In this document: positions 12,886 through 23,239 of the stretch, one piece after another
How positions within the stretch are numbered: the first letter of the stretch is position 1
Layout: every line of letters starts with the position of its first letter
Source of the DNA: an uncultured Halomicronema sp.
GTDB taxonomy: Bacteria; Cyanobacteriota; Cyanobacteriia; Phormidesmidales; Phormidesmidaceae
DNA length: 48,059 bases
NCBI GenBank assembly: GCA_937899725.1
Contig: CALCCA010000125.1
Span: 1 to 48,059, forward strand
Direction: 5' to 3'
Program-made: the position numbers and the translations under genes
Notes under the pieces: model-generated
What the model was told of the DNA's origin: nothing
Database searches by the model: none
What the model saw: the letters and a program-made list of their open reading frames with translations, nothing else

Positions 12886-13509
12886 CTACTCCCCTTGCCA
12901 AGCGGCCTCAAAAAAGTCGCGTTCGCAAAGCATGGCATAGCGAAACGTCTCCGCCACCAGGGGACTGTCAGTGCTGTGCCGATCAACCAGGGTTTCGAGC
13001 TGAGTCACCAACGGGGCAAAGTCGTCACCGCTGTAGGTGCGCACCCAGTCGCTGTAGGCATTCTCTAAAATGCCTCGACTGGCCAACGCCTGACCGATAT
13101 GGGCATACAGTCGCATACAGGGCGACATCGCCGCTGCTGTCACCCCCATCTCTTGCCCCCAGGCGATCGCCAGCAAAAAGTCGGTATACCGCCGGGTGGT
13201 GCTGCCGGGCTGCACGTCGCTCAACGAGACACCCCAAGTCTTGGCATAGGCTTGATGCAGCTTGAGTTCTTCGAGCACACCATTGGCCAACTCATGAAAA
13301 ACCGCAAACCCCTGCCAGTCAGGGGCCTTCGCTGCCGCAATGCTGTAGGCACGCGCAAAGGATTCTAAAAAGAAGGCGTCTTGCCCAACGTAGTAGGCAA
13401 ACTTTGCCTTCGGTAGGGTGCCGTCGTAGATGCCCTGCACAAAAGGATGTTCGAGGGAGGCACGGGCCAGATCTTGATTTTGTTGCCAGAGACGCTGAGA
13501 CAAATTCAT
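12886..13509 (-). CDS. tenA: TenA family aminopyrimidine aminohydrolase (thiaminase II)
   Basis: A 207-residue all-helical TenA protein. TenA enzymes hydrolyse aminomethyl-pyrimidine to HMP, salvaging the pyrimidine half of thiamine. Visible active-site candidates are D44 (GQDAFF), C131 in the SPCMRLY motif, and a Glu in the C-terminal ERDFFEA stretch. The Cys marks the TenA_C class rather than TenA_E. It is a single gene on the minus strand, convergent with the thioredoxin-TPR gene. I looked upstream for a thiamine-pyrophosphate riboswitch and did not see the conserved core. Confidence 0.88.
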   Translation of the reverse strand: MNLSQRLWQQNQDLARASLEHPFVQGIYDGTLPKAKFAYYVGQDAFFLESFARAYSIAAAKAPDWQGFAVFHELANGVLEELKLHQAYAKTWGVSLSDVQPGSTTRRYTDFLLAIAWGQEMGVTAAAMSPCMRLYAHIGQALASRGILENAYSDWVRTYSGDDFAPLVTQLETLVDRHSTDSPLVAETFRYAMLCERDFFEAAWQGE

Positions 13510-13624
13510 CGTGATTTAAACGTGAGGGATTGCTTTTCTTGTACTGGACTCAGGGCAGCGGTGAAAGTCGAGACGCTGGTAGCACAGGGAGATGAAGACG
13601 ATGCACACAGCCCTCCACCGGGCT

Positions 13625-13642
13625 CTTAATCCCAGGATTAAG
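13625..13642. repeat. Short palindrome CTTAATCC-CA-GGATTAAG
   Basis: A perfect 8-bp inverted repeat with a 2-nt centre, between tenA and the cNMP-fold gene B. The spacing suits a dimeric regulator site as well as a small hairpin. Role unknown. Confidence 0.4.
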
Positions 13643-13656
13643 GCAATTGCGGAGAA

Positions 13657-13683
13657 GAACCCCCGTTCCTGTCAGGCGGGTTC
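13657..13683 (-). terminator. GC-rich hairpin downstream of cNMP-fold gene B
   Basis: GAACCC (13657-13662) pairs with GGGTTC (13678-13683), extendable by one C-G pair past a bulge. It lies about 100 nt after the stop of the minus-strand gene. No clear T-run. Confidence 0.35.
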
Positions 13684-13776
13684 AGCAAGTCATCATCCGT
13701 TCGTCAGTATCGACATCGGTCACAACTATCCCTACGGGCATCGCCTTGATGAGCAATCTCCGCCAGCGCGATCGCC

Positions 13777-14367: not shown

Positions 14368-15258
14368 AAAGGTAGATAGTTAGCCAAAACTCGGGCAACC
14401 CAGTGTTAAACCTACAATGCCCAAAGAGTTGATTCCTGTTTTAGAGCACTCGCCATAAAGAATCAAGGATAGAGCAGAAACTGGCAGCTGCCTTCAAACT
14501 TGTGGCAAACGCAAGAAAGCATTGGCTGACGCAGGCCGAACAGTGACAGTCAAGCAATCATTCCAGCGGCTGAATGCCGTCACCATCCTCTTTTGTGAGT
14601 ATCAATCGCCCATGACGCTGTTGCGACAACCCCCAACGATGAAAATCCTGCTGAGATGGACTTTCGGAGTTCTGGTAACGCTATTTTCAGAGCAATCTTG
14701 AGCAGGCAACTGGCGGGCGTCTCGCCCTCTGGCAACCTCTGATGAGACACCCAGTCGTCACGCTAAAGCCGACGGGATTGCGGATTCCTGAGACTAATAA
14801 GTGTTTGAAAGCCCTTGCAAAGTATTGTGAATCCGTTCCGCCCGCATGACCGCAACACCCGGCAGGCAGCAGGCAGTTTCGCTATCGAGCCAGGCGTTAT
14901 GGCCTACAGCTAGTCACCGAGATAACGGGTGATTGGCCGCTGATATCGACATTAACCCTAAGCTTGGGGGACAACCGTGCTAAAAAAGGATATCAAGCTT
15001 TTGCGGCTTTTGCCGGGATAAGCAGGGGCTTTCTCATACACTTATCTCGTAAAAGTATTTCATTTGGGCTATCAGGTATCTGAGCCCAGCACCAGAATGC
15101 TTTGGCTCGGCTGATTGGCGCGATCGCGGCTAGCTCGATGATCGCCACTAGCCCAGCAGATAAATACGTCTAATCGCTGTTGAGAATCGTGAGTCGCTGT
15201 GTCATGAATAAATTAGCTGCGAAGTTACGGCGGCACGACTGCACTGGAAGGTAGAGAT
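14368..15258. other. 890-nt gap between divergent cNMP-fold and ParA-like genes
   Basis: No reading frame of note on either strand. The stretch must hold both promoters but is far longer than needed. It contains only short imperfect inverted repeats (for example around 14716-14732, GGCGGGCGTCTCGCCC). A non-coding RNA or a decayed gene is possible; nothing is recognisable by eye. Confidence 0.5.
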
Positions 15259-16020: not shown

Positions 16021-16493
16021 ATTTCAGGAAACGCTGCGGCCTCAATTTCACCCTCTGATTTGCAGTTGGAGTGCCAGGGAGCAGGCAAACATCAAGGGGG
16101 GTGTTATGCCAATTCTCTGAAACTGGGCTACAGATCTTCCTTTCGACTCCGCTCAAGGAACGTCGGCTGAGCGGAGTCGTTCGCATCGCGTCTCCCCGAG
16201 GGAGAAAGCCGACTTGTCTGTGTAGCTGTAATTCGTAGAACTGGTATTACATCCACCCCGAAGAACAGGTACGACCGGGCAGCAGTCTCTCGATCCTGAG
16301 ACGGTTGCCCACCCTGAACCCTCAACCCTGGGCCTTAAACCCTAGCTGCAGTTTAAGGGTGAATAATTTCGCCACCCTCGACCAGACACGCCGCCGTCGG
16401 TAGAAACTGGCACGACTCGTTGAGTCATTCGCAGGGGGTCGAGTAAGCTAAGCTGGCTAATGAAAAGTGCCCTAGCGAACATAAGGATCTGTC
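16021..16493. other. 470-nt intergenic region containing a REP-like element
   Basis: Apart from the inverted repeat listed at 16144-16179 and the SD/GTG start of the next gene, I see no gene or RNA here. Confidence 0.5.
16144..16179. repeat. REP-like palindromic element (CGACTCCGCTCA)
   Basis: CGACTCCGCTCA (16144-16155) and TGAGCGGAGTCG (16168-16179) form a perfect 12-bp stem around a 12-nt loop. Similar TTCGACT-CGCTCA palindromes are common dispersed intergenic repeats in cyanobacteria (established pattern, from memory). Only one copy is seen in this window. Confidence 0.7.
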
Positions 16494-18585: not shown

Positions 18586-19107
18586 CTACTGCAGCTTGCT
18601 CTGTAGCGATTTGAGATATTCGGTGTTGACGCCCGACTCGCGGGTGAGGGCAATCTTGCCCGTACGAGCAATCTCTCGCAGGCCAAAGCGTCCCAGAACC
18701 TGAACGATCGCCACCATTTTGCCGGGGTCGCCCACGACTTCAATCGTCACAGAATCTTCCGAAACATCCACCACGCGCGCCCGAAAGATTTGTACCAGCT
18801 CCAAAATTTCTGACCGGTTGGCGCTCGTCGCATTCACCTTAATCAGCATCAGCTCGCGCTCAACACAGGGCACTTCGGTAATGTCCTGCACCTTTAAAAC
18901 GTTGATGAGCTTATAGAGCTGTTTCGTCAGCTGTTCAATCACCTGATCGTCTCCTGGCACCACCATCGTGATGCGAGAAACGCCCATCTGCTCAGCGGGT
19001 CCTACCGCCAAGCTCTCGATGTTAAAACCCCGACGGGCAAATAATCCAGCAATCCGCGTCAAAACGCCTGCTTCGTCTTCAACCAAAACCGACAGTGTGT
19101 GTTTCAT
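18586..19107 (-). CDS. ilvH: Acetolactate synthase small (regulatory) subunit
   Basis: A 173-residue protein. The ATG at 19107 gives the family start [16 protein letters not shown]; a TTG 51 nt upstream would add a non-conserved tail. It has an N-terminal ACT domain (about 2-75) with [20 protein letters not shown], and the family C-terminal domain with [13 protein letters not shown]. IlvH binds the catalytic subunit IlvB and gives valine feedback control of the first step in branched-chain amino acid synthesis. No ilvB is adjacent, as is usual in cyanobacteria where the genes are dispersed. Start-site support: GGGAGG lies 13 nt before the ATG. Confidence 0.95.
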
Positions 19108-19622
19108 AATCTCGGCAGCACCTCCCGTCCCGGCAGGGGTGGAGTTTTTGTAGGGCAAGACGTGATCGTAGCCTGACGCCAGGCTTTTGTTAAGCGTCTG
19201 GTGGGGTTTGCCAATGAGCTGCGCGGCAGCAATCAGGGGGGCGAGCAGGGGCCGTGATCTTGAGCGATCTGGAAACGCGGGAAACTGGGACGGTAGGGCG
19301 TTCGGCAGCCCTCAGTGCATTGCCCCTAGCTGATTGAGCCAGCATGATCGCCTCCGCGCCCCAACCAGCTAGGGGCTGAAACCGATGCGCTACAAATATT
19401 GCGCGGCTCACTGATGACAACCCCACGATCGGCTCATTCGGTTGGCGTATCGAGATGGCGGTCGCAGAGCACTGTCAGCCGGTCAAATGTAAACATTTTT
19501 TGCCCTTCGCAAAGATGCCATCTGCGGCTGCAATTCGCCTCCAACCTGGATGGCACCAGAGTCAGTGTCACAATCACGCTGCGTAGCCAGCGGCGGGCTG
19601 TTCCCCCCAGAGGAAAACGCAA
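19108..19622. other. Divergent ilvH/infC intergenic region
   Basis: About 515 nt carrying the ilvH leader on one side and the infC leader on the other. It contains a small hairpin AGCCTG-ACGC-CAGGCT (19170-19185) followed by T residues, and an 11-bp inverted repeat listed separately. Short open frames on both strands at 19399-19626 have no recognisable content. Confidence 0.5.
19322..19376. repeat. 11-bp inverted repeat with 33-nt loop
   Basis: GCCCCTAGCTG (19322-19332) and CAGCTAGGGGC (19366-19376) are perfectly complementary. The right arm shares GCTAGGGGCTGAA with a site near 10374. Might be a small dispersed repeat or a structured leader of infC or ilvH. Confidence 0.5.
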
Positions 19623-20213
19623 TTGACCGATTACGCCAAATCAAATTTCGAGCTTCTCGTTTGCCCTCACCTCTATTTCCTAGTTGAGCATGCGCAGTCG
19701 CAACCCGCGAAACGTTCCCCCATCAATGAGAACATTCGTTTTCCGGAGAGCCGTCTGATTGGCGATGACGGGGCTCAGCTCGGCATCATTTCACCCCGTG
19801 AAGCGCTACAAATCGCCGAAGCCAAAGACTTAGACCTCGTGTGAGTCAGCGATAAGGCTACGCCACCGGTATGCCGCATTATCAACTACGGCAAATACAA
19901 ATTCGAGCAGGAAAAGCGGGCTCGAGAGGCCCGCAAGCGACAGCACCACGTCGAAGTGAAGGAAGTCAAGATGCGCTACAAAATTGATGATCATGATGAC
20001 AACGTGCGCGTTAAGAATGCTCAGCGGTTCCTTAAATCTGGCGACAAAGTGAAAGCCACGGTCATGTTTCGAGGCCGCGAGATTCAACATTCTGACTTGG
20101 CAGAAAAACTATTGCGCCGTATGGCTCGTGATTTAGCAGAATTTGCCGAAATGCAACAGGCGCCAAAGCGGGAAGGGCGGAATATGATGATGCTGTTATC
20201 GCCGAAAAAATAG
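19623..20213 (+). pseudogene. infC: Translation initiation factor IF-3 interrupted by an in-frame TGA
   Basis: Reading one frame from TTG 19623 to 20213 gives a near-complete IF-3: [17 protein letters not shown], then the signature [14 protein letters not shown], the linker, and a C-domain ending [10 protein letters not shown]. The codon at 19842-19844 is TGA where the family has Leu (LDLV-stop-VSDKA), so the frame splits into 73 and 122 codons with no frameshift. The rest is well conserved. AGAGGA precedes the TTG; infC genes often use non-AUG starts. The first ~33 residues look unlike normal IF-3. An AAGGAA-ATG at 19959-19973 could in principle restart translation at the C-domain. Possibilities are a base-call error (TTA to TGA is one change), a decaying second copy, or recoding. 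Confidence 0.8.
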
Positions 20214-20221
20214 CCATCTCA

Positions 20222-23200
20222 ATGGTCACTAGGGCGATCGCTGCTCACAGTTCTCCCTCACCCATGAAATCGAGTCGGATTGCATCTCCCCTAATTCCTG
20301 CTTGGCAACAGCGGCTGCTGCGCATTATCAACCTGCGGCCCAACGAGGCCGAGCGCACCTTATTGATGTTTGCCTTCTACACCGCCACCTCCATGGGGAT
20401 CTTGTGGCTGGAAGTCAGCTCAGCAGCCCTCTTTTTGGATGAATATGGCGCCGCTTCGCTGCCATGGATCTATATTTTTAGCGCCGTCGTGGGGTTTGGC
20501 CTGAGCTTCGTCTACTCGTGGATGCAGCGATTTTTTCCCTTGCGCTGGGTGATTGTGCTCATCGCCGTGGTGATGGCCGTTCCAGTGCTCCTGTTTCGTT
20601 GGGGGCTCGATGTGGAAGCCTTGCTGCCCTTGACCGTGTTTGGCATGCGGTTGTGGATGGAGGCGATTTATGGGCTCAACGATCTCAACGTTTCGATTAC
20701 GGCCAATCAGCTCTTCAACATTCGCGAAATCAAACGCACCTTTCCCCTCATTAGCAGCGGCAATTTGGTGGCCGATGTCTTGAGTGGCTTCTCGGTCTTA
20801 CTGCTGGTTAACTTAGTTGGTCTGAAAAATGTGCTGCTGCTGTCATTTTTGATCATGCTGGTGGGGGCAGGCATTCTGCTAATCATCAGCCGCAACTACG
20901 AGCACGCGTTTCCCGATTCACTGAGGCGGCAGGCGGCAGCGGGGGAAGACGCCCACAAAGCCCAGCGATCGCGTGACAAAATCAGCCAGTACGTGGTGAT
21001 GCTGTTCAGCTTTTTTGTGCTGGCGCAAATTTTGATGTATCTCATCGAGTTTGAATATCTCACCCAGCTTGAGGCCACGTTAGAAATCGATGAAATCGCC
21101 GCTTTCCTCGGCATTTTTAGCGGTTTGCTCGGCCTGATCGAACTGTTGACCCAGTGGTTTACCTCCAGCCGCTTAATTGAGCGGCAGGGGGTGTTTGCGG
21201 TGCTGTCCATCTTGCCTCTAGTCATTGTGGGCATCAGCATCATGACGATTGTCGGCAGCTATCCCATCTTTTTGGGGGCGATCGCGCTGTTCTTTGGCCT
21301 GGTCATTCTCAAATTTTTCGACGAGTGGCTGCGCTATACGCTGGTGGCGAGTACCCGACCAGTCCTATTTCAACCGATTCCGGACAGTCAGCGCACCATC
21401 TTTCAATCCCTGGTGGGGGGCATTGCCGAGCCACTGTCCATGGGGGGTACGGGCATTTTTATTCTGTTGAGCATCGGCTGGGCCAACTGGTTGGGCTTCA
21501 CCAGTCAGCAGTTGCAGACCCAGTTTTTCTTAATTGTGATCGTCTTCTTGGCGGTCGTGTGGCTAGGGGCGATCCTGTTTTTGCGATCGCAGTATCTCGA
21601 ACTGTTGGTCAAAAGCGCCCAGCGCGGCCTGCTCAGCATGACGGATGCCAGCCTGCGGGTGCTGAAAAAAGCGTTCATCGAGCAGCTCGAAAAACCCGGT
21701 TCCGAAGCCGACAAGCGCTCCTGCATTGAGCTGCTGGGGCAGCTTGACCCCAAAGGCGTCGGTGAAGTGCTGGCGCCCCGCTTAACCGCCATACCCGCTC
21801 CGCTGCGACGGCAGAGCTTAGAGGCAATGCTGGCCTATCCGAATCGCGACCATACGCCCAATGTGCGCCAGCTGATTGAGACTGAACAGCCCCCAGAAAT
21901 TTTGGCCCTGTCGCTGCGTTATATCTGGCTCACCGACGATAGCCCCGACATCGATAAGCTGCAGGCCTATTTGAAGCCAGAGATTGACCCTGTCGTGCGG
22001 GGCACCGCCGCTTCGCTCATGCTGCGTCACGGCAACGCTCGCGAAAAAAACGAAGCCGTCAACACCCTGCGGCAGATGCTCACCCACGATCGTGAACGAG
22101 AGCGCGTGATGGGCTGTCGGGCCTTGGGTGAAGCCGACTATCTGCAGTCGCTGCGGCTCTACATTCCCAATCTGCTGCAGGATGAATCGCTGCGCGTGCG
22201 CCGCGCCTTGCTCGAAGCGATTGCCGCCACCCACCTGAAGGAGTATTACCCATCACTCCTCAAGGCTCTGCAGTACAAATCAACCCGTGAGGCCGCCAGT
22301 CAAGCCCTGACGCGGCTCGGCAACGATGCCCTGCCCCTGTTGGAGTCGGTCGCCCTCGACAGCTACAAGCCCGACAGTTTGCGTAATCAAGCCTGGCAGG
22401 CCATTGGCAATATTGGTACCGACCAGGCGATTGATTGTCTGCTGCAAAATCTGATGACCACGTGGGGCAGCACCCGCCGCACCCTGCTGCGCATCTTACT
22501 GCGGCTGGTGCAAGAGACGGGCCTCAAGCGATCGCAAGGCATTGACGCCGCCCTCGATCGCTTTGGTCGTGACGGCGTAGAAGAGCTGATCAACCAGGAA
22601 CTCACCTTTATCGGTCAGATTTATGGCGGGCTGGTTGATCTCTCTGACGACACGCTGGTGGGCCGAGAAATCGGCCTGCTACTGCGATCACTCGAAGAAC
22701 TGCAGGGCGACGCGATCGAACGCATTTTTATGCTGCTGCGCTTTATCTCACCCCCAGCGGCCATTCAAGCAGCTCAGGTGAGCTGGCAGGGAGGCACCGC
22801 CTCTAACCGGGCGCGGGGCATCGAGATTTTAGATAACACCCTCGACATTCCCAGCAAGCGGGCAATCTTGATCATTTTGGATCGCCGTTCCTGGCTGGAA
22901 AAAATTGAAGTTCTGGCGAGCAGTAACCTGTTTGTCTATCAGTCGCTATCGGCCAGCGATCGCCTGCGCTATCTGCTCGATCTGCGCTACTTCCTCTCCG
23001 ACTGGGGATTGGCCTGCTGCTTTCATCTCGCCCGTGCTCAACGCTGGAGCCTCAGCGCCGAAAACACTGTGGCCTGCCTCAAACATCCCACCGGGTTTGT
23101 GCGTGAGGCCGTACTGTCATATCTGCAGATTGCTTCGCCCCGCGTGCTGCGAGAACTCTTACCCTTGATGCGCCAAGACCCCAACGACCTCGTCATGAAT

Positions 23201-23239
23201 CAGGTCGAGCATTTGATGACCGAGCTGCAGATGATTTAG
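20222..23239 (+). CDS. MFS-type membrane protein fused to HEAT repeats
   Basis: A 1005-residue two-part protein. Residues about 40-480 hold some ten to twelve hydrophobic segments, resembling the major facilitator/NTP-exchange transporter group (the FGMRLWMEAIYGLND and FPLISSGNLVAD stretches). From about 500 to the end there is a soluble array of HEAT-like helical repeats (for example DPVVRGTAASLMLRHG and DESLRVRRALLEAIAATH). Such fusions occur across cyanobacteria; substrate and partners are unknown. The HEAT half would face the cytoplasm if the termini follow the MFS rule. The start lies 8 nt after the infC stop, so it may depend on infC transcription. An internal ATG at 20264 is an alternative start. 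Confidence 0.83.
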   Translation: MVTRAIAAHSSPSPMKSSRIASPLIPAWQQRLLRIINLRPNEAERTLLMFAFYTATSMGILWLEVSSAALFLDEYGAASLPWIYIFSAVVGFGLSFVYSWMQRFFPLRWVIVLIAVVMAVPVLLFRWGLDVEALLPLTVFGMRLWMEAIYGLNDLNVSITANQLFNIREIKRTFPLISSGNLVADVLSGFSVLLLVNLVGLKNVLLLSFLIMLVGAGILLIISRNYEHAFPDSLRRQAAAGEDAHKAQRSRDKISQYVVMLFSFFVLAQILMYLIEFEYLTQLEATLEIDEIAAFLGIFSGLLGLIELLTQWFTSSRLIERQGVFAVLSILPLVIVGISIMTIVGSYPIFLGAIALFFGLVILKFFDEWLRYTLVASTRPVLFQPIPDSQRTIFQSLVGGIAEPLSMGGTGIFILLSIGWANWLGFTSQQLQTQFFLIVIVFLAVVWLGAILFLRSQYLELLVKSAQRGLLSMTDASLRVLKKAFIEQLEKPGSEADKRSCIELLGQLDPKGVGEVLAPRLTAIPAPLRRQSLEAMLAYPNRDHTPNVRQLIETEQPPEILALSLRYIWLTDDSPDIDKLQAYLKPEIDPVVRGTAASLMLRHGNAREKNEAVNTLRQMLTHDRERERVMGCRALGEADYLQSLRLYIPNLLQDESLRVRRALLEAIAATHLKEYYPSLLKALQYKSTREAASQALTRLGNDALPLLESVALDSYKPDSLRNQAWQAIGNIGTDQAIDCLLQNLMTTWGSTRRTLLRILLRLVQETGLKRSQGIDAALDRFGRDGVEELINQELTFIGQIYGGLVDLSDDTLVGREIGLLLRSLEELQGDAIERIFMLLRFISPPAAIQAAQVSWQGGTASNRARGIEILDNTLDIPSKRAILIILDRRSWLEKIEVLASSNLFVYQSLSASDRLRYLLDLRYFLSDWGLACCFHLARAQRWSLSAENTVACLKHPTGFVREAVLSYLQIASPRVLRELLPLMRQDPNDLVMNQVEHLMTELQMI

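Follow-up and report, generated by a model that had tools for sequence, protein, structure and literature searches.

In an uncultured Halomicronema sp., the gene infC, which encodes initiation factor IF-3, is interrupted by an in-frame stop codon. It lies on a stretch of 48,059 nucleotides that is called the window in the following. IF-3 is described as essential in the accessible parts of two papers (PMC5472188; PMC8266586). The locus raises the question whether the gene is really dead and, if so, which protein does its work. The answer that we hold with considerable confidence has three parts: the standard infC of this strain has died recently; a second, divergent IF-3, for which we coin the name InfC2, would carry the essential function of the factor and would keep its own production in check; and the standard gene would have been lost about six times.

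The interrupted infC locus

An earlier, sequence-only reading of this DNA had noticed a TGA at 19842-19844 within an otherwise open IF-3 frame, in place of a leucine codon. Both points are borne out by our analysis. The Pfam domains match on the two sides of the stop, with IF3_N positions 1-40 before it and the remaining IF3_N plus the complete IF3_C after it, and the codon alignment with relatives that the reading had proposed as a check shows Leu in the congener G002 and in seven other relatives. The features of the locus are as follows.

18589-19101, minus strand: ilvN, acetolactate synthase small subunit, the usual left neighbour
19690-20213, plus strand: infC pseudogene, standard cyanobacterial IF-3 (congener alignment; Pfam IF3_N/IF3_C on the pieces; NCBIfam TIGR00168 on the 3' piece)
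19690-19692, plus strand: infC start codon ATG, out of frame with the remainder (homology)
19717-19721, plus strand: frameshift, a run of five C against CCACCC in the congener, one base lost after 19718 (alignment)
19749-19751, plus strand: I21S, with Ile in 7/8 relatives and Val in 1/8 (relatives' alignment)
19842-19844, plus strand: in-frame TGA at codon 52 (alignment)
19956-20213, plus strand: open reading frame after the stop, with GTG 19956 and ATG 19971 inside; possible C-domain-only product, unsupported
19998-20000, plus strand: Y104D, with Tyr in 8/8 relatives compared (relatives' alignment)
20222-23239, plus strand: gene of a HEAT-repeat protein, the usual right neighbour

G002 is the nearest intact relative, syntenic across the region and with 91-94% DNA identity over the main matching pieces. 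The alignment with this congener places the deletion in codon 10, which puts ATG 19690 out of frame, and identifies the TTG-started frame upstream of about 19720 as something other than infC coding sequence. TTG 19623 was rejected as the infC start: relatives start at ATG 19690, and that frame has no earlier infC homology. The TTG start and the unusual first ~33 residues, which the earlier reading counted as an oddity, are thus by-products of the frameshift, the residues coming from outside the gene or from the wrong frame. Among relatives, the standard infC has an in-frame ATG at 22 and a GTG without ATG at 5 of the 27 loci that could be read (29 loci were taken, L032 and L009 being unread; an in-frame ATG means one located 8-18 codons before the domain).

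No single reading frame runs from the start codon through IF3_N and IF3_C, for it is shifted at codon 10 and stopped at codon 52; place and sequence are homologous to infC, the lesions are disabling, and relatives are intact. Judged from its sequence, the window infC is a young pseudogene with two disabling lesions and, in addition, Y104D, and a full-length protein would not be expected. Between window and G002 we count 18 silent codons, 7 replacements, 1 stop and 1 codon with the deletion, at 92.9% identity over 169 aa. One of the 7 replacements, at codon 173, arose on the G002 side, because the other relatives share the residue of the window. The impression that both halves of the gene are conserved is true only because of the youth of the lesions, and the second lesion had been overlooked. 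The E. coli IF-3 counterpart of the residue at position 104 is Tyr107 (alignment transferred by eye via infC2), and Y104D suggests relaxed constraint on infC.

Could the gene be a normal infC with assembly or base-calling errors? The genome is a draft of 216 contigs that was judged from the assembled sequence, the lost base sits in a C-rich run, and the two-contig assembly of the congener G005 has a broken rpoB that resembles such errors. Against this stand two independent disabling changes together with Y104D and I21S within one 525-nt gene, the absence of such changes from the compared annotatable neighbours, and the recurrent loss of the standard infC across the family. The annotatable neighbours common to window and G002 show no break over ~14.5 kb, with infC as the exception (scan of G002 open reading frames of at least 100 aa, in matches above 75% identity). 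Two independent lesions in one gene amid unbroken neighbours make the base-call error envisaged by the earlier reading unlikely. Besides infC, stops occur in four matches to frames of 103-115 aa, each overlapping a larger intact gene in another frame or on the other strand. An intergenic 107-aa frame of G002 is both stopped and frameshifted at window positions 14805-15111; it has 74% protein versus ~93% DNA identity and is probably a chance frame. The remaining low-identity matches, frames of 110-114 aa at 13417-13725 and 19437-19721 (the latter antisense, upstream of infC), are likewise taken for chance frames. A contaminant contig was considered and rejected on a partial test, in which the contig's ilvN matches once in the genome and IF-3 twice, once per type.

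Some further observations concern the surroundings. Positions 16103-16250 hold a ~150-bp repeat that looks like a small dispersed element: it has at least 42 matches in the genome, the majority of them 92-99% identical, and G002 contains many as well. Positions 19342-19431, upstream of infC, weakly match two other G002 contigs and are possibly another dispersed repeat. The rpoB match of G005 (G005:C1:5038709-5039903) consists of two pieces with internal TGA codons, probably assembly errors of that record.

The frame after the stop is open and IF-3-like, as would be expected if stop readthrough and a frameshift bypass together yielded full-length IF-3. Readthrough, which the sequence-only reading had offered by itself, would also need the bypass upstream, so that two recoding events would be required in one short gene; a stop or shift at those sites is found in 0/8 relatives compared, and Y104D points to relaxed constraint. 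We find such recoding scarcely credible.

A working C-domain made by reinitiation at GTG 19956 or ATG 19971 is improbable as well. An isolated IF-3 C-domain retains much of the activity of IF-3, the frame after the stop encodes 85 aa that span IF3_C, and dN/dS is 0.07 for codons 90-174 against 0.17 for codons 1-80, a difference based on tiny counts of 3 and 5 replacements. However, the AAGGAA before ATG 19971, from which the earlier reading had derived an internal restart, is non-specific, because the congener's intact gene uses the same DNA simply as part of its coding sequence, and a C-domain product would carry Y104D.

A second, divergent IF-3 gene

Both IF-3 domains were searched in the whole assembly (6,994,590 bases, 99.98% complete), and they occur at two places only, the window infC and infC2; an intact standard infC was not found elsewhere in the assembly.

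Contig C40, 100985-101506: infC2, an intact divergent IF-3 of 173 aa (profile searches)

Among the explanations listed in the sequence-only reading, a decaying extra copy is thus the best supported, with the correction that infC did not arise here as one of two duplicates: its counterpart in the genome is a divergent IF-3. The genome-wide search for an intact infC that it had suggested does return an intact IF-3, but not a standard copy.

InfC2 scores 89.4 and 76.7 bits with Pfam IF3_N and IF3_C, above their cut-offs, and 154 bits with NCBIfam TIGR00168 (cut-off 60). Its IF3_C match covers only positions 3-70 of 86, and the standard C-terminal EGRNM stretch is absent; if InfC2 has displaced the standard factor, start-codon proofreading may therefore have been re-tuned in the lineages concerned. 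An AlphaFold model, calculated for the identical protein of G002, predicts both IF-3 domains (mean pLDDT 76.8, pTM 0.46). Foldseek matches this model domain-wise to the N and C domains of solved IF-3 structures, while the placement of the domains relative to each other is unreliable. In a search of solved structures with query A2, known IF-3 chains are the sole matches.

The infC2 genes of window strain and G002 differ by 12 silent and 0 replacement codons. The ratio of replacement to silent changes is 8:18 for infC versus 0:12 for infC2 (Fisher p = 0.039), a small contrast that points the way expected for a decaying gene. Compared with four pooled neighbours (43.5:254.5, p = 0.048), the contrast for infC is modest, and it is weakened by the neighbouring methyltransferase, whose dN/dS resembles that of infC (0.11 vs 0.10).

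In the IF-3 tree, the infC2 genes form one clade (SH-aLRT 100) on a long branch (2.1), and the standard genes stand apart with support 92; the outgroups are 14 non-cyanobacterial finds. Among named contigs, the nearest infC2 genes belong to uncultured Halomicronema, Oscillatoria sp. CS-180, Halomicronema sp. CCY15110 and Leptolyngbya sp. SIOISBB, which suggests a filamentous source cyanobacterium of the Halomicronema/Leptolyngbya kind. Two infC2-type matches are present in 20 genomes of the family, all without standard infC, and the second copies of g2, g4, g12 and g14 form a subclade with support 97. Seen by locus, infC2 pairs occur at L112-L125 and L137-L151 (e.g. L114, L122, L125) in several genera without standard infC, and many second copies there fall in a separate subclade.

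The start codon assigned to infC2 is ATC in 46, ATT in 13 and ATA in 7 genes. Together these account for 66 of the 68 non-identical 5' ends, the other 2 being unreadable. Identical 5' ends were collapsed, and the 14 non-cyanobacterial IF-3s were excluded. The rule takes the candidate codon (ATG, GTG, TTG, CTG, ATT, ATC or ATA) that lies nearest to the domain among those with a Shine-Dalgarno-like motif at a prescribed spacing; ATG, GTG, TTG and CTG were thus permitted and were picked 0 times. For L094 and L082, none of the candidate codons had a Shine-Dalgarno motif, L045 was unanchored (it fits by eye), and some accepted motifs are weak (GGGG, AGGA and GAGAG, one each). In 38/64 infC2 genes, the stretch from the upstream stop to the IF-3 domain contains zero in-frame ATG, GTG or TTG. 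The infC2 of the window's own genome starts with ATC after GGAGG. infC2 thus has the kind of start codon (AUU, AUC or AUA) known from infC genes under E. coli-type self-regulation. In E. coli (ATT) and Streptomyces (ATC), IF-3 represses its own synthesis in this way, according to the accessible part of PMC5472188, and by analogy with these two genes of the same start class infC2 is probably self-regulated through its non-AUG start.

The mechanism that we propose is as follows. InfC2 would take on the essential work of IF-3, namely 30S binding and the proofreading of start codon and initiator tRNA, and would restrain its own synthesis via the non-AUG start, in the manner of the E. coli factor. 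Next to infC2, the ATG-started standard infC would turn redundant; it would just have been inactivated in the window strain and have decayed or vanished in relatives. We infer the essential role of InfC2 because near-complete genomes show no other IF-3 match. On this basis it would suffice as sole IF-3; full equivalence of the divergent infC2 with standard IF-3 is assumed.

Loss of standard infC across the family

The window's family was surveyed in 63 genomes, and 15 of them contain a standard-scoring IF-3 (121-129 bits). The window's copy is broken; the other 14 show no stop in the matched frame, including that of G009, which is cut by the contig end. Of the 48 genomes without standard infC, 46 have only low-scoring infC2-type matches (called from the sequence in 26 and from the score alone in the others), G025 (78% complete) is left with a mere remnant that contains a TAG, and G059 (75% complete) has no IF-3 match. 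If the count is restricted to family genomes with a completeness of 95% or more, infC2-type matches without standard infC are present in 34 of 44. Outside the family, a standard-scoring IF-3 occurs in 131 of 131 genomes sampled from the class, again at 95% completeness or more. Of 23 genomes from other families that had been sampled before, five carry an infC2-type gene plus a standard one, and G045 (93% complete) gave no match.

Five congeners that were examined possess both infC and infC2 without stops; the presence of infC2 need therefore not make infC dispensable, and the two genes may be somewhat specialised there. The retention of both genes, whose roles may differ, would also fit a merely accessory infC2 beside another, undetected standard IF-3 that does the work. 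Yet either IF-3 domain is found at only two places in the genome of the window, and the 34 near-complete genomes just mentioned offer no standard match. We give this alternative very little credence and continue with InfC2 as the probable working IF-3.

Two side observations emerged from the survey. At G047:C1:1861605-1861859 and G093:C1:1707464-1707718, both in one family, IF3_C lies in a 685-aa open frame, which is either a fusion or a long chance frame. At G194:C421:23286-24137, two standard-scoring IF-3 genes adjoin in one genome.

The place of the missing gene can be followed. In the congeners and several other genera, standard infC sits between ilvN and the HEAT-repeat gene, and among the 30 ilvN loci first examined, the 24 with both neighbours in the fetched stretch have them in divergent order in 24/24 cases. 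The gap measures 972-1228 bases at the 9 loci with infC (1160 in the window) versus 219-477 bases at the 15 loci without standard infC (g4, g10, g12, g14). Within these 15, G025 retains a 68-codon infC remnant with TAG in a gap of 457 bases, and G018, of the same genus, about 30 recognisable infC codons (E 2e-5) in a gap of 408 bases; in the other 13, the best infC match has an E of 0.009 or weaker or is lacking altogether, so that none of them holds a convincing remnant. A further 20 ilvN loci were read in addition. They include G021 (g7), with 227 bases from ilvN to the HEAT gene and no infC, while its genus-mates G011 and G031 retain infC, as well as G016 and G063 (g12), whose gaps of 460 and 435 bases likewise lack infC. 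In six of seven g2 loci, 1513-1842 bases separate the neighbours and an infC remnant is absent; at six g13 loci, the surroundings of ilvN did not yield the HEAT gene. The site was thus rearranged or filled with other DNA in g2 and g13, which provide no empty-site evidence. In G012, infC is still beside the HEAT gene, with ilvN elsewhere; in G027, G060, G078 and G079, the locus does not include both neighbours, and infC was not seen there. Decay of infC is graded over g1, g4, g7, g10, g12 and g14, with the stages intact, broken (window), remnant and gone, and the window is the earliest stage of decay at this site.

The losses were counted on an RpoB tree of 46 rows, 40 of them from the family and 6 serving as outgroups, with G009 represented by only 602 aa. 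The genomes without intact standard infC fall into the groups g10; g13; g2; g4+g14+g12; G021 within g7; and the window within an otherwise intact genus. Group g2 is placed beside the intact g5 with support 88. At least 5 changes are needed if G021 is left uncoded, and at least 6 if it is coded as lost, a coding that follows from its empty ilvN-HEAT site. With G021 left out, a single clade of all these genomes is rejected (p-AU 2e-43), and so is such a clade without the window (p-AU 3.4e-4). The tree is based on one marker, a quick search and SH-aLRT support only, with some relevant forks weak, such as that of g2 and g5, and for this reason we put the number at "about six". That a probably self-limiting InfC2, started at AUC, AUU or AUA, displaced the standard IF-3 on about six occasions, with the window as the newest loss, is the model towards which we lean.

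Relation to known systems

If this model holds, the family is one in which the standard infC looks dispensable and vanishes, with living stages of the loss; infC2 is the candidate replacement, its start codon suggests a built-in feedback, and the swap of an essential initiation factor becomes a directly testable question. Marker pipelines may mix two non-orthologous IF-3s in these cyanobacteria. In the accessible parts of the respective papers, infC serves as a universal phylogenetic marker (PMC5987646), the IF-3 C-terminal domain as a single-copy marker (PMC7368068), and a survey notes infC as lacking in one cyanobacterial genome (PMC10812107). The literature we searched, largely papers available without subscription, contains no description of infC2 or of standard infC loss in the window's family, and a second IF-3 in cyanobacteria is unmentioned there.

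With respect to the standard cyanobacterial infC (TIGR00168; PF05198 + PF00707), the window gene is a direct descendant at the same place between ilvN and the HEAT-repeat gene as in the congeners, but it is frameshifted and stopped. InfC2 shares the start-codon class, the Shine-Dalgarno motif and the IF-3 domains with infC of E. coli (ATT) and Streptomyces (ATC), as far as these are described in the material available to us; in contrast to them, it is a second, highly divergent IF-3 beside an ATG- or GTG-started one, and its C-terminal stretch differs.

It is a general pattern that a homologue replaces an essential gene and that the original then decays. The present case resembles this pattern in its redundant second factor and in the subsequent stepwise loss at a fixed site. 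It differs in that the gene concerned encodes IF-3, which the sources accessible to us employ as a universal or single-copy marker, and in that the loss recurs inside a single family of bacteria.
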